Source: Methanoregulaceae archaeon
Lineage (GTDB): Archaea; Halobacteriota; Methanomicrobia; Methanomicrobiales; Methanospirillaceae
Direction: 5' to 3'
Length of the DNA: 64,000 bases
NCBI GenBank assembly: GCA_021371995.1
Contig: JAJFVA010000010.1
Coordinates: forward strand, 62,001-126,000
Shown here: positions 45,433 to 51,800 of the stretch, one piece after another
Layout of the letters: each line of letters starts with the position of its first letter
Numbering within the stretch: position 1 is the stretch's first letter
Position numbers and translations under genes: made by a program
Notes under the pieces: generated by a model
What the model was told of the DNA's origin: nothing
The model's database searches: none
The model's input: the letters and a program-made list of their open reading frames with translations, nothing else

Positions 45433-45473
45433 ACTAAATGTTAAAATAACTTTACAATAGTGTGAGGGAACAG

Positions 45474-47507
45474 ATGAAGTACCGGACTCAAATATGGGGG
45501 GGAGTGATCCTTCTCTTTCTGCTTCTCGTCAGTATCCCGGTGACGGGCGCAGATGATTACACCGTCAGGACTACGGTTGACGGCGCCCCCTCCCTGTCAC
45601 CTGTCAATCCTGAATTCACCAGTTTCCTCTATGACTCACGCGCTGCACGACTGGATTTCAACTCCGAAACTACGAGCACACTTGGTCTTGTGCCTTCAAC
45701 AGTTGATCTTTCTTTCTCCCGGGGAATCCAGATTTCAGATATGGGGGGGGTATCATCTCAAGTAAACCAGTATTCGGAGATCGTATCCTCACTATCAGAT
45801 CGGGGGCAGACTTATGGGGCCGTGTCTGCGACCACCCTTCCGGGTACGTTTGATTTGAGAACTCAGGGAAAAGTTACTTCTGTAAAAGAACAGGGGCAAT
45901 GCGGGAGTTGCTGGGCTTTTTCCACCTTTGCCTCTCTTGAATCCATTCTTCTTCCTGGCGAATCATGGGATTTTTCCGAGAATAACCTGAGGAACACGCA
46001 CGGTTATGATCTTACCTCCTGTCAGGGAGGGAATGCGATGATGGCAACTGCCTATCTGGCACGGTGGAGTGGGGCCCTTACCGAATCAAGTGATCCGTAT
46101 TCCACCGTATCAAAAAGTGCAACATCCATCACGTATCCAAATTCCGATTCAGTAAAGCATGTCCAGGAAGTGCTCTATATCCCCGGGCGTGGCAGTTCTC
46201 TCGACAATACCAATATAAAACGGGCATTGTATGAAAAAGGGGCCGTTTATTCGACAATACGATGGGAAGAGTCGTCATACCGGTCGTCCTCTGCAAGCTA
46301 CTATTACAAGGGGAGTTCCGGGGCAAACCATGCAATTACTATTATCGGATGGGATGATTCATATGATCGAAGCAAGTTTACCTCTCAACCCCCGGGTAAT
46401 GGCGCCTTTATCGTGAAAAATTCCTGGGGAAGCAACTGGGGAGAGGGAGGCTATTTCTATGTCTCATACTACGACACCGTCATTGGAGAGGATAACGCGG
46501 TGTTTACTTCTGAAGAATCAGATAATTATTACCATATCTACCAGTATGACCCGTTGGGATGGGTCGTTTCGTACGGTGAAAACAGCGAAACTGAGTATTT
46601 TGCGAATATCTTCACCGCCCAGTCGGAGGAGGACCTTTCAGCTGTCAGCTTCTATACCGCTGCACCCAATTCAAAATACCAGTTATTTGTGTACAAGGGA
46701 GTCAGTGGAACGCCGGTATCAGGAAGTGCTCTCGTCTCGCAGTCGGGTACTATCAGCGTTTCGGGATACCACACAATCCCTCTCTCTTCAGCAGTCCGCC
46801 TGCAGAAGGGTGAGAAATTCTCCATTGTGATTAAACTGACTACCCCGGACTACAAATACCCGGTGGCGATAGAGTATCCCCTGTCCGGGTTCTCTTCAGG
46901 AGCACGTGCCACAAGCGGGCAGAGTTACGTGAGCAGTAGCGGGACATTATGGTATGACCTCTCAACAATTTATCCGAACAGCAACGTCTGCATAAAAGCC
47001 TTTACCACCTCTGCTTCCGGGTCTACTGCAGATACCCCTACCTCCACTCCTTCTGCCACAACGACCCCGACACCAACAACAACGACCTCTGCAGCCGATA
47101 CAAAATCTCCGACAGTGACCCTTACATCGCCTCGCGCTTTCAGTTCGGTAACCCCCGGGTCCACCGTCAAGGTCATCTGGAGTGCGACCGATAATAAAGG
47201 TGTTTCCGGTGTTGATATTGCCGTGTCAAAAGACAAAGGGAGCACATGGACCACGGTAGCAATGAATCTGGCAAAGACAGGGACCTATACTCTTACCGTA
47301 CCTCAGGATGTTTCAGGTACTTTCATGATCCGTGTCACGGCACGGGACAGTGCCGGAAATGAAGGGTCTTCAACCCGGAGCTGCATTGTGAGAGCATCGA
47401 CCCTGTCGACCACTACTGTCCGGACGACGACCACGACGACCACTCCGGTTCCGACCACAATCGCGCTTGATAGGACTTCGCGTATTACAGAATTTTTGTC
47501 ACGATAA
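45474..47507 (+). CDS. Secreted papain-family (C1A) cysteine protease
   Basis: 677 residues from the ATG at 45474 (GAGGGA upstream). Signal peptide (GGVILLFLLLVSIPVTGA), a propeptide of about 90 residues, then the protease: oxyanion Gln140, nucleophile Cys146 in GQCGSCWAF, His286 in GANHAITIIGW and Asn316 in VKNSWGSNWGEGGYF. It is followed by a beta-sandwich domain (about 335-505), a Thr/Pro-rich linker (about 510-550) and an Ig-like domain (VIWSATDNKGVSGVDIAVSKD). The tail (TTTTTTPVPTT) is also Thr-rich. All catalytic residues are present. A chagasin-type inhibitor is encoded at 19.5-20.5 kb. No anchor seen. Confidence 0.9.
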   Translation: MKYRTQIWGGVILLFLLLVSIPVTGADDYTVRTTVDGAPSLSPVNPEFTSFLYDSRAARLDFNSETTSTLGLVPSTVDLSFSRGIQISDMGGVSSQVNQYSEIVSSLSDRGQTYGAVSATTLPGTFDLRTQGKVTSVKEQGQCGSCWAFSTFASLESILLPGESWDFSENNLRNTHGYDLTSCQGGNAMMATAYLARWSGALTESSDPYSTVSKSATSITYPNSDSVKHVQEVLYIPGRGSSLDNTNIKRALYEKGAVYSTIRWEESSYRSSSASYYYKGSSGANHAITIIGWDDSYDRSKFTSQPPGNGAFIVKNSWGSNWGEGGYFYVSYYDTVIGEDNAVFTSEESDNYYHIYQYDPLGWVVSYGENSETEYFANIFTAQSEEDLSAVSFYTAAPNSKYQLFVYKGVSGTPVSGSALVSQSGTISVSGYHTIPLSSAVRLQKGEKFSIVIKLTTPDYKYPVAIEYPLSGFSSGARATSGQSYVSSSGTLWYDLSTIYPNSNVCIKAFTTSASGSTADTPTSTPSATTTPTPTTTTSAADTKSPTVTLTSPRAFSSVTPGSTVKVIWSATDNKGVSGVDIAVSKDKGSTWTTVAMNLAKTGTYTLTVPQDVSGTFMIRVTARDSAGNEGSSTRSCIVRASTLSTTTVRTTTTTTTPVPTTIALDRTSRITEFLSR

Positions 47508-47718: not shown

Positions 47719-48702
47719 ATGAGAATTCTTCCCGCCACCGGCTGCACTTTCTGCCATGAAGGGGCCAAGATGGTCCTCTTCATCACCGGGGTATGCAGTC
47801 ATGCCTGCTGGTATTGCCCCTTATCCCGTGAAAGGAAGGGAAAGGACCAGGTCTATGCCAATGAGCACCGGGTCTCTACTCCTGATGAAGCTGTTGCTGA
47901 AGCAAAAAATATGAGTGCAATGGGTACGGGTATTACCGGTGGAGAACCCTTTGAACGGCTGGACCGGGTTATCAGCTACGCATCACGGTTGAAAAAGGAG
48001 TTCGGGCAGGAGCACCACATTCACATGTATACCTCGTGCGCCCCTTCCGAAAAAGAATTATCCGATATTTCCGGATTAATCGATGAGATCAGGATGCACC
48101 CTCCGGTCGAGTGCTGGAGAGAGATTGAGAAGAGCGAATATATCAGGTCTGCAGAGAGGGCAGCAGGAATGGGATTTGAAGTAGGGTTTGAAGTGCCTGC
48201 CCTGCCAGAAATTGATCTCCTTATCCCGGCACTCCAGTATCTTGACTTCCTGAACATCAATGAGCTCGAATGGGGAGAGACGAATGCTCCGGAAATGCGG
48301 AGGAGAGAGATGATTCCCGAAGACTCGGTCCACAATGCCGTGGAAGGAGCCCGCGCCTGGTGCCGGAACATCCGCAGGTACAAAAAAGTCTATTTCTGCA
48401 GCTCCGCTTTTAAGGATTCCGTACAGCTCAGGAAAAGGCTCATCCGGATTGCGGAGAACACTGCACGCGCTTTTGATGAGATCAGCGACGACGGAACGAT
48501 CATCTACGGCAGGATAGAAGATACTCCGTTCATCCCCGATTCTGTCCGGCAGCTTGGTCCTGAAATGTTCGAAGAAAGAGATGGCGCCCTTGAGACGGCA
48601 TGGTGGATTCTTGCAGAAAAAGGGAATGAGATAGGGGGCAAAAAGACAATTGTCGAGCGATACCCGAACCGCGGGATCATTGTTGAGGTGACACCGATCT
48701 GA
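47719..48702 (+). CDS. Radical SAM protein (COG2108-like)
   Basis: A 327-residue radical SAM protein: the cluster motif CSHACWYCP at about 26-34 and an extra Cys pair CTFCHEG near residue 9. The SAM-binding GGEP near 75 (GITGGEPFERLD) and LNINELEWGE near 181 follow. It splits S-adenosylmethionine to start a radical reaction; the target is unknown. COG2108 proteins are archaeal. Its stop overlaps the start of the cis-prenyltransferase gene by one base (TGATG), so they are co-transcribed. Confidence 0.82.
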   Translation: MRILPATGCTFCHEGAKMVLFITGVCSHACWYCPLSRERKGKDQVYANEHRVSTPDEAVAEAKNMSAMGTGITGGEPFERLDRVISYASRLKKEFGQEHHIHMYTSCAPSEKELSDISGLIDEIRMHPPVECWREIEKSEYIRSAERAAGMGFEVGFEVPALPEIDLLIPALQYLDFLNINELEWGETNAPEMRRREMIPEDSVHNAVEGARAWCRNIRRYKKVYFCSSAFKDSVQLRKRLIRIAENTARAFDEISDDGTIIYGRIEDTPFIPDSVRQLGPEMFEERDGALETAWWILAEKGNEIGGKKTIVERYPNRGIIVEVTPI

Positions 48703-49466
48703 TGCTCCGGAATTTTCTGGAACCGGTCTATGAAAGATCCCTGATAGCACAAATCAGGCATATTCCCTGTCATGTGGCAATTATCCAGGACGGGAACCGG
48801 AGGTTTGCCACCGCCCGCGGTATCGTTCGCCAGGAAGGTCATCGTGCAGGTGCAGATCGTACCGAACAGGTGCTCGACTGGGCCCGGGAAATGGGAATCA
48901 GACATATTACCCTGTACTCGTTCTCGACCGAGAATCTTCTCCGTGATGAAGGTGAAGTGAAGGACTTGTTTGAACTGTTTAAAGAGCGGTTCAGCAAGAT
49001 AGTGTCGGATGAAAGGATTCACAAGGACCGGATCCGGGTCAGGATGGTGGGCGACAGGTCGTTGTTGCCGGCCGATCTCACTTCCGTGATTACCCGGGCA
49101 GAAGCGGCAACAAACAAGTACGATTCATATTTTCTCAATGTTGCACTCGCCTATGGCGGTCGAAACGAGATCGTGCGTGCGGCAAAAGAGATACTTGAAA
49201 AGGTGAGAACCGGAGAATACAACATTGGCAGCATTGACTCATCACTGGTGGAACAGCATCTCTGCGCCGACCATAACCTTCCGCCCGTAGATCTCGTCAT
49301 CCGGACCGGGAATGAATACCGGACTTCGAACTTCCTCCCATGGCTTGCAAACGGGCATGAGTCGGCTGTGTATTTCTGCGCTCCTTTCTGGCCAGTGTTT
49401 CGGAAAATTGACCTCCTGCGGGCAATACGGGTATACTCGCAGCGCCGGGAAGCAACGATGGGCTAA
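48702..49466 (+). CDS. uppS: cis-prenyltransferase (undecaprenyl/dolichyl diphosphate synthase), catalytic
   Basis: A 254-residue enzyme with all cis-prenyltransferase motifs: HVAIIQDGNRRFA with Asp30, GHRAGADRTEQVL near 47, TLYSFSTENLLR near 70 and the C-terminal RTGNEYRTSNFLPW with Arg201 and Arg207, which bind the pyrophosphate of IPP. It builds the long polyprenyl diphosphate that becomes the lipid carrier for glycosylation (compare AglJ at 27.6 kb). ATG follows the radical SAM stop directly. It converges, 10 bases apart, with an inactive-looking paralogue. Confidence 0.93.
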   Translation: MLRNFLEPVYERSLIAQIRHIPCHVAIIQDGNRRFATARGIVRQEGHRAGADRTEQVLDWAREMGIRHITLYSFSTENLLRDEGEVKDLFELFKERFSKIVSDERIHKDRIRVRMVGDRSLLPADLTSVITRAEAATNKYDSYFLNVALAYGGRNEIVRAAKEILEKVRTGEYNIGSIDSSLVEQHLCADHNLPPVDLVIRTGNEYRTSNFLPWLANGHESAVYFCAPFWPVFRKIDLLRAIRVYSQRREATMG

Positions 49467-49476
49467 GCTCCCTGCC

Positions 49477-50115
49477 CTATTTTCCAAATCTTCTGACTCT
49501 TGCCTGATAATCACGGAGAGCCCTTAAAAAATCGATCTTCCGGAAATATTTCCAGTTCACATCAGAAAAGAATAATTCCGAATACACTGACTGCCAGATG
49601 AGAAAGTCAGTAAGGTGCGACCCTCCTGTTTTTATCACAAGATCAGGGGCATAGGGGAAGGTGAGATACTCCTCAAATGTCTGTTCACAGGTGGTTTCTG
49701 GTGAGATCCCATCTTCTGCCATCCTCCTGATACAGCACACTATCTCCTCCCTTCCGCTGTTTCCCACTGCAACGCAGACATCCATTCCCTCCCCTGCCAC
49801 TTCTGTATTTTCCCCGAGATGGAGATGCAGTCGTGCATGGTCGCCCACCTTACGGATCATGGAAAGGTAGGTATCCAGGCGTGTCGGGTCGGGGGTGCTG
49901 ATATGAAAGGTGATTCCCTTAATTGCGGGATACGGTGCGTCTCCCCCTGTATTTTTTCCCGCGATAAAATCATTTACAGACAGACACCACCTCGTCACGT
50001 CATTCAGTTTCGATTGAGAAGCCTCCATATCACTCTCAGTAATCATAAAGCAGATGTGAGCAGGGAGGACCTCAATTCCACGGAGAAGAGCCCGTTCATA
50101 AAGCCAGTGGATCAT
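49477..50115 (-). CDS. cis-prenyltransferase-like protein lacking catalytic residues
   Basis: 212 residues from the ATG at 50115, which overlaps the PolX stop (ATGA). The C-terminus (APDLVIKTGGSHLTDFLIW, FRKIDFLRALRDY) aligns with the active enzyme next door, but the key residues are changed: DGN is TES (26-28), Arg201 is Lys162, Arg207 is Leu168, Ser is Asp170. The protein is also about 40 residues shorter in the middle. It keeps the dimer-interface end of the fold. By analogy with eukaryotic Nus1/NgBR subunits it may pair with the active enzyme. Confidence 0.8.
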   Translation of the reverse strand: MIHWLYERALLRGIEVLPAHICFMITESDMEASQSKLNDVTRWCLSVNDFIAGKNTGGDAPYPAIKGITFHISTPDPTRLDTYLSMIRKVGDHARLHLHLGENTEVAGEGMDVCVAVGNSGREEIVCCIRRMAEDGISPETTCEQTFEEYLTFPYAPDLVIKTGGSHLTDFLIWQSVYSELFFSDVNWKYFRKIDFLRALRDYQARVRRFGK

Positions 50116-51800
50116 GCAGCCCACTCCAGAAGTTCACCGGTACTGAGCGTATTGAGTACATTCTTCCGGGAGCACCACCCCCTCCTGCAGGTCATGACGC
50201 CGTATTGCATATGTAAAAATTCCGGACTGTCATGCGTGTCAGTACCGATAGCAATCCTGACCCCCTTCTCCACCGCCTCCCTTATATACGTATCATCAAG
50301 ATCGAGCCTGAAAGGGGATGCATTGCATTCGAGAGAAGTGCCGGTCTCCCTTGCCCTCTCGATAAGCCTTGAGATATCAACGGAATACCCCTGCCTCTTC
50401 CCGATAAGCCGGCCGGTAGGATGACCAATGATATCCACGTGATCGTGTTCAACGGCCGCGAGAATGCGTCTCGTCATAATGTCCCGGGGCTGTGAAAAAC
50501 CTGAATGAACCGAGGCAATCACGATTTCCAGATCCGAAAGGGCCCGGTTCGGGAGACCAAGAGAGCCGTCCGCGAGAATATCGACCTCAATCCCGTGGAT
50601 AATTCTGCATGACGAGGATCGGTTTATCATCTCAATTTCATGGGCCTGTTTCGTGAGACCGCCTTCATCGAGACCATGGGCAATTCCCAGTGTTGCCGAA
50701 TGATCTGAGCAGACGATATACTCGTATCCAAGATCCTCTCCTGCTTTTGCAAGGGCTTTGAGAGAGAGGAGGCCGTCGGTCCAGCTGCTGTGCACATGGA
50801 GGTCTCCCCTGATATCACGGGAGTCCACCAGGACAGGGAGGCTATGGGATAGCGCTCTTTCCACTTCACCCCAGTCTTCCCTCAGTTCCGGAACAATGTA
50901 GTCCAGGCCAAGAAACGCAAGGATCTCATCTTCCCGGGAGAACTCTTTATGGGTACCGGTTGAACGATCTTCAATCCCATACTCGTTCAGTTTGTAGCCG
51001 CGGGACATTGCAATCTCCCTGAGTTTTATATTGAACGCTTTTGAGCCGGTGAGGTAGAGAAGCATGGAACCAAACTGCTGTGACCGGGTGAAACGGAAAT
51101 CCACCCGCTTCCCAAGGATTCGAAGGGAGGTCTTCCGGTCGCCGGCGTCAATAACCTCTTCTGCGATGGTCCGGAGCTTCGGGTTAAGGCGGCCGGGAAG
51201 TTCTATGGTGACAACATCGATATCGCCGATGCTGCTCTTCCCCCTCCGGTAGCTGCCCGCAAATTCATAGGTCCCGGGATCAAGGATCGGCCGGATTTTT
51301 CCGGCCACTGCATCGGCCTCCAGACGATTCATACGTCCGGACTGGTCACGGTAGATCGCAATCGATTTCAGAAATCCCTCCTCTTTTTTCTCTCCGAATC
51401 CTCTGATGGCCCTGATACGATGTCCTTTTGCCGCCCGTTCTAGATCATCTATACAAAGGACATTCAGTTTTTTCCAGAGCGTTGAAACGGTTTTCGGGCC
51501 AACTCCCTCGAGATTCAGGAGCTCGATAAGGGTTCCGGGTATTCCGGATTTTGCCTCTTCAAGTTCAGTAAAAGTCCCTTTTTCGACAATTTCGCGGATT
51601 TTTCGCGCGATATTTTTTCCTATCCCATCGATGCTGGAGAGGGCATGGTCATCCATTCCGGCAACCGGTGCTGCCAGCCGGTCGATGATGTCGGAGGCCC
51701 GGTAAAAAGCCCGGATTTTAAAGACATTCTCCCCTTTTATCTCGAGGATCTGTCCCATGAGGTTCAGCTGCGCCGCTACCTGCTGGTTTGTTACCTCCAT
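50112..51800 (-). CDS. polX: Family X DNA polymerase with PHP domain (PolX)
   Basis: A 562-residue protein: helix-hairpin-helix N-terminus (DGIGKNIARKIREI, LEGVGPKTVSTLW), the PolX nucleotidyltransferase site (FAGSYRRGKSSIGDIDVV and DFRF) at about 178-245, and a C-terminal PHP metallophosphoesterase domain (DLHVHSSWTDG near 343, CSDHSATLGI, IHGIEVDIL, GHPTG, GTDTHDSPEFL). Such polymerases fill short gaps in base-excision repair; the PHP domain is a 3'-5' exonuclease in related bacterial enzymes. Start ATG 51800. Its end overlaps the paralogue gene of the cis-prenyltransferase. Confidence 0.93.
   Translation of the reverse strand: MEVTNQQVAAQLNLMGQILEIKGENVFKIRAFYRASDIIDRLAAPVAGMDDHALSSIDGIGKNIARKIREIVEKGTFTELEEAKSGIPGTLIELLNLEGVGPKTVSTLWKKLNVLCIDDLERAAKGHRIRAIRGFGEKKEEGFLKSIAIYRDQSGRMNRLEADAVAGKIRPILDPGTYEFAGSYRRGKSSIGDIDVVTIELPGRLNPKLRTIAEEVIDAGDRKTSLRILGKRVDFRFTRSQQFGSMLLYLTGSKAFNIKLREIAMSRGYKLNEYGIEDRSTGTHKEFSREDEILAFLGLDYIVPELREDWGEVERALSHSLPVLVDSRDIRGDLHVHSSWTDGLLSLKALAKAGEDLGYEYIVCSDHSATLGIAHGLDEGGLTKQAHEIEMINRSSSCRIIHGIEVDILADGSLGLPNRALSDLEIVIASVHSGFSQPRDIMTRRILAAVEHDHVDIIGHPTGRLIGKRQGYSVDISRLIERARETGTSLECNASPFRLDLDDTYIREAVEKGVRIAIGTDTHDSPEFLHMQYGVMTCRRGWCSRKNVLNTLSTGELLEWAA

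Follow-up and report, generated by a model that had tools for sequence, protein, structure and literature searches.

A catalytic cis-prenyltransferase and its non-catalytic paralogue as predicted subunits of one heteromeric enzyme in a Methanoregulaceae archaeon

Why does an archaeal genome carry, next to an intact cis-prenyltransferase (cPT) gene, a second one that has lost its catalytic residues? The question is raised by a locus in the window, i.e., the whole stretch of 64,000 nucleotides analysed here (contig JAJFVA010000010.1 of assembly GCA_021371995.1). A PF01255 search of the 1.85-Mb genome, which is 98.6% complete, revealed these two cPT genes alone. They are convergent, one located at positions 48702–49466 on the plus strand and the other at 49477–50115 on the minus strand, and exactly 10 bases separate their stop codons, in agreement with an earlier note on this DNA that had described them as facing each other at that distance. 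The same note had predicted a two-subunit archaeal enzyme making the carrier lipid. Our comparisons make it very probable that the two genes encode the subunits of one heteromeric cPT which makes the polyprenyl diphosphate precursor of a dolichol-type glycosyl carrier lipid, a prediction supported by the co-occurrence of the genes, the distribution of the R-x-G motif between them, the conserved paralogue clade and the heteromer reported from Methanosarcina mazei.

The 254-amino acid product of 48702–49466 is a UppS/DHDDS-like protein and represents the putative catalytic subunit. It matches PF01255 over its full length (226 bits) and TIGR00055 with 227.6 bits, which exceeds the UppS equivalog cut-off; in the alignment its identity amounts to 34% with human DHDDS and 38% with E. 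coli UppS. The catalytic D-G-N (D30, G31, N32; 48789–48797, plus strand) and both diphosphate-binding arginines, R201 and R207 within RTGNEYR (49302–49322, plus strand), are present, as had been noted before. Residues were counted in an alignment that included E. coli UppS as well as DHDDS and NgBR from human, both of which had been checked against PDB entries; the 132 active-family and 108 paralogue sequences came from overlapping searches and include near-copies (89 and 83 sequences, respectively, at 80% identity). The equivalents of D26, G27, N28, N74, R77, R194 and R200 are retained in all 132 active proteins. Missing from 131 of them is the C-terminal R-x-G motif, which is found in a single member of the family; the window protein ends with the tail RREATMG (49443–49463, plus strand) and likewise lacks it. 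In homodimeric cPTs the arginine of this motif touches the Mg site and the backbone of its glycine the acceptor diphosphate (PMC8131916). Absence of R-x-G alone is no proof of dependence on a partner because MM_0014, which also lacks it, is nevertheless a homodimeric enzyme (PMC8131916).

The 212-amino acid product of 49477–50115 (minus strand) is predicted to be a non-catalytic, NgBR/Nus1-like subunit. As described in the earlier note, it is shorter than its neighbor and aligns at the C-terminus: PF01255 matches only the C-terminal half (84.6 bits; residues 105–214 of a 215-amino acid query that begins at an upstream GTG start). Homology to cPTs is far beyond chance because NCBIfam UppS models reach scores of up to 98 bits. 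The start at 50115 assumed previously is likely to be right since this ATG overlaps the stop codon of polX (ATGA) and relatives begin at the equivalent residue. The alignment confirmed that T-E-S (50032–50040, minus strand) replaces D-G-N and that lysine replaces the first arginine of the pair. With respect to the second arginine, its loss holds true, but the leucine named in its place is either histidine or leucine depending on where the gap of a one-residue deletion is placed.

These losses are not peculiar to the window. None of the 108 paralogues has the catalytic aspartate, and all of them lack the segment that contains R39 and H43. By contrast, positions 242 and 244 are [R/K] and G throughout, strictly R-x-G in 105 sequences and K-x-G in three. 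In the window the motif is the RFG (49483–49491, minus strand) of RRFGK, the last residues of the protein. Some distant paralogues, for example L153 and L136, retain one or both arginine equivalents; thus, the true marks of the paralogues are loss of the aspartate and the loop together with the kept R-x-G, rather than loss of the arginine pair. Lack of catalytic residues combined with mainly C-terminal similarity is a described property of non-catalytic cPT subunits (PMC7839719), and yeast Nus1 has an asparagine in the R-x-G motif (PMC7573591). The RRFGK end of the paralogue and the absence of R-x-G from its active partner had escaped the earlier note; the occurrence of the motif on the paralogue alone is the strongest evidence in favor of a heteromer.

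If the two proteins work together, their genes should travel together. The earlier note had named co-occurrence in related genomes as a check, and among the genomes surveyed, in the order as well as in the phylum, nearly all were indeed found to have both genes. PF01255 genes are present in 192 of 199 genomes of the order, nearly always exactly two, and in 195 of 197 genomes across the phylum. Matches to the paralogue protein were obtained in 194 of the 199 genomes and to the paralogue profile in 155 of 157 across the phylum, and because active proteins also weakly match paralogue queries, both genes were classified individually in representative families. One gene of each class occurs in nearly every genome examined, covering some 20 families. 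A single copy was seen only in drafts (G026, G124, G138, G139 and G332), and a few genomes have a third copy, MM_0014-like or other. Family f15 encodes a shorter second cPT homolog with an open frame of 164–168 amino acids (L232, G220:C1:104888-105187; L231, G228:C1:568994-569356), which is perhaps a further reduced non-catalytic subunit.

Where both genes lie on one stretch, 88 of 91 distinct pairs are convergent, 56 of these within 100 bases, a count that derives partly from stretches picked for gene closeness and should not be read as an unbiased frequency. Linkage is not universal: several families of the phylum have the two genes unlinked. Upstream of the catalytic gene, and overlapping its start by one base, is a gene for an uncharacterized radical-SAM protein (47719–48702, plus strand; PF04055/PF13353) for which no fitting NCBIfam equivalog was found. 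Among 84 loci with sufficient flanking sequence, 63 have a radical-SAM gene at this place and on this strand, including loci of family f9 outside the order; the product may act on the carrier lipid or in related metabolism. On the other side, the paralogue follows the gene for DNA polymerase X with a PHP domain (50112–51800, minus strand; NF006375 above cut-off), an arrangement shared by 40 of the 81 loci with sufficient flank, the cases seen so far being confined to this order. Further away, 45462–47507 (plus strand) encodes a large secreted-looking protein with the papain-like cysteine protease motif QGQCGSCWAF and a threonine-rich C-terminal region; this gene lies near others for predicted surface proteins.

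In a phylogenetic tree the paralogues form a single clade apart from the active family (support 100/85), which indicates one old split that predates the sampled phylum. Recent local duplication as the origin of the pair was rejected because this clade spans the phylum, and a frameshift or pseudogene was rejected on account of the phylum-wide open frame and purifying selection. Within the genus, where measurable, dN/dS is 0.10–0.21 for the paralogue and 0.06–0.08 for the active gene; hence, the paralogue evolves under purifying selection. Its conservation is unevenly distributed. Mean entropy is lowest in the R194/R200 region (0.63 bits) and in the C-terminal helix with R-x-G (0.92 bits), the corresponding values of the active family being 0.73 and 1.33 bits. 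The former catalytic and tunnel regions are least conserved (1.7–2.6 bits), and within the stretch that aligns with UppS residues 78–140 much is missing or variable. Such a pattern is as expected for a subunit that has been retained for its presumed interface and tail.

Taking these data into account, we propose that the 48702–49466 protein would bind the allylic diphosphate and IPP and carry out the chemistry. The 49477–50115 protein, itself unable to catalyze, would dimerize with the catalytic subunit via its conserved C-terminal half, and its RRFGK tail would enter the partner's active site and supply the Arg-x-Gly which the catalytic subunit has lost. Completion of the site in trans is suggested by analogy, because structures of the human complex and of homodimeric cPTs show the role of R-x-G. 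In the former, the C-terminus of NgBR, which bears R-x-G, reaches over the interface to form part of the active site of DHDDS, and activity is about 400-fold higher in the complex than with DHDDS by itself (PMC7573591). From such comparisons we infer that the two proteins associate physically and that the tail acts in trans, and likewise the nature of the product and its role in N-glycosylation. AlphaFold2 single-chain models were poor, with a pLDDT of 55 for the paralogue (three sequences) and 42 for the active protein (two sequences); in a Foldseek search the paralogue model, itself poor, matched cPT folds with TM-scores only near 0.4, a result given no weight here.

Other fates of the paralogue deserve consideration. 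It is conceivable, if improbable, that the active protein is homodimeric and that the paralogue forms a homodimer of its own with another role, such as prenyl diphosphate binding or flux regulation, no stable heteromer being made. Yeast Nus1 does homodimerize when expressed alone and DHDDS shows weak activity by itself (PMC7573591), and the unlinked genes of several families would suit such a division. However, separate homodimers are difficult to reconcile with near-strict co-occurrence, with an R-x-G motif that resides wholly on the paralogue and with the heteromer reported from M. mazei. Very unlikely, in our view, is an active paralogue of altered specificity, for instance head-to-middle or terpene synthase-like, that employs other residues. 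Archaea do harbor cPTs with unusual chemistry, namely MM_0014 and MA1831 (PMC8131916, PMC7839719), but MM_0014-like enzymes retain D-G-N whereas all 108 paralogues are devoid of the aspartate and of the R39/H43 segment, in addition to the missing or variable 78–140 region. Finally, lost catalytic residues might mark a decaying duplicate without function. This interpretation has hardly any probability left because it is contradicted by purifying selection on the paralogue, with dN/dS well below 1, and it also conflicts with near-universal presence and with a C-terminal motif kept across the phylum.

The two-subunit cPT has a precedent among archaea. According to a statement in PMC8131916 that cites Emi et al. 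(2019, BBRC 520:291), MM_0618 and MM_1083 of M. mazei form a heteromeric cPT with C45–50 products and are probably responsible for synthesis of the glycosyl carrier lipid; with this published case, heteromeric cPTs have already been reported from archaea. The Methanosarcina-like genomes G301 and G320 encode three cPTs, one that is very similar to MM_0014 and one of each family present in the window. Because the third enzyme is accounted for as MM_0014-like, the window pair is assigned, by elimination, to what are presumably the same two families as MM_0618 and MM_1083. Identity between the window and Methanosarcinaceae-like proteins is 47–49% for the active protein and 33% for the paralogue.

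A link to N-glycosylation is suggested by the genome itself, which encodes an STT3/AglB oligosaccharyltransferase. In family f12, two drafts of one genus (G217 and G225; 91% complete) are devoid of both cPT genes and also of STT3/AglB, and this joint absence is a weak but consistent pointer to a glycosyl carrier role. That genus is possibly a lineage without polyprenol-based N-glycosylation. A counter-case is G100, which lacks both cPT genes but has AglB; in this draft genome the pair may have fallen into a gap.

The existence of the pair in archaea raises the more interesting question of whether eukaryotic Nus1/NgBR descended from the archaeal subunit. One could speculate that a single split into a catalytic and a dead, R-x-G-bearing subunit took place in archaea and passed to eukaryotes together with the N-glycosylation pathway, making the archaeal non-catalytic subunit the ancestor of Nus1/NgBR, but we regard this scenario as tentative and rather doubtful. 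The paralogue protein, used as a single sequence, matches human NgBR (residues 6–51; E value 2e-5). Human NgBR scores 37.8 bits over its full length with the paralogue profile and 31.2 bits, in two pieces, with the active profile; its identity with the window paralogue is only 26%. In the tree that included E. coli UppS and the two human proteins, DHDDS and NgBR, the latter joins the paralogues with a support of only 51/4 on a branch of 5.8, which is uninformative either way.

Our analysis indicates that cPTs of two subunits are the norm throughout an archaeal phylum, being neither a eukaryotic specialty nor an oddity of Methanosarcina. It thereby becomes possible to test where NgBR/Nus1, which is a human disease gene, originated, and the small versions of 212 and 254 amino acids, which lack the extensions of NgBR and DHDDS, lend themselves to work on the way in which an inactive subunit completes the active site.

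Compared with known systems, the resemblance to DHDDS/NgBR and Rer2/Nus1 that the earlier note had pointed out is borne out by one intact and one dead subunit and by an R-x-G motif on the dead partner only. Like human DHDDS, the active subunit of the window has D-G-N and lacks R-x-G; like human NgBR, the paralogue lacks both D-G-N and the loop that follows it and carries T-E in the first two places of the former motif. It terminates with RRFGK and human NgBR with QRLGK, i.e., both with R-x-G plus lysine. By contrast, the window proteins have no counterpart of two extensions, the membrane region at the N-terminus of NgBR and the C-terminal helix-turn-helix of DHDDS that drives heterotetramer formation (PMC7573591). 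As in M. mazei with MM_0618 and MM_1083, two archaeal cPT paralogues are present, the heteromer in the window being predicted from homology. A long distance separates the two genes in Methanosarcina-like genomes, which may also encode an MM_0014-like enzyme as a third cPT, whereas in the window the genes are convergent neighbors and a third copy is absent. Both window proteins share the fold family of homodimeric E. coli UppS; yet D-G-N, both arginines and R-x-G, which UppS carries on one chain, are divided over two chains in the window.
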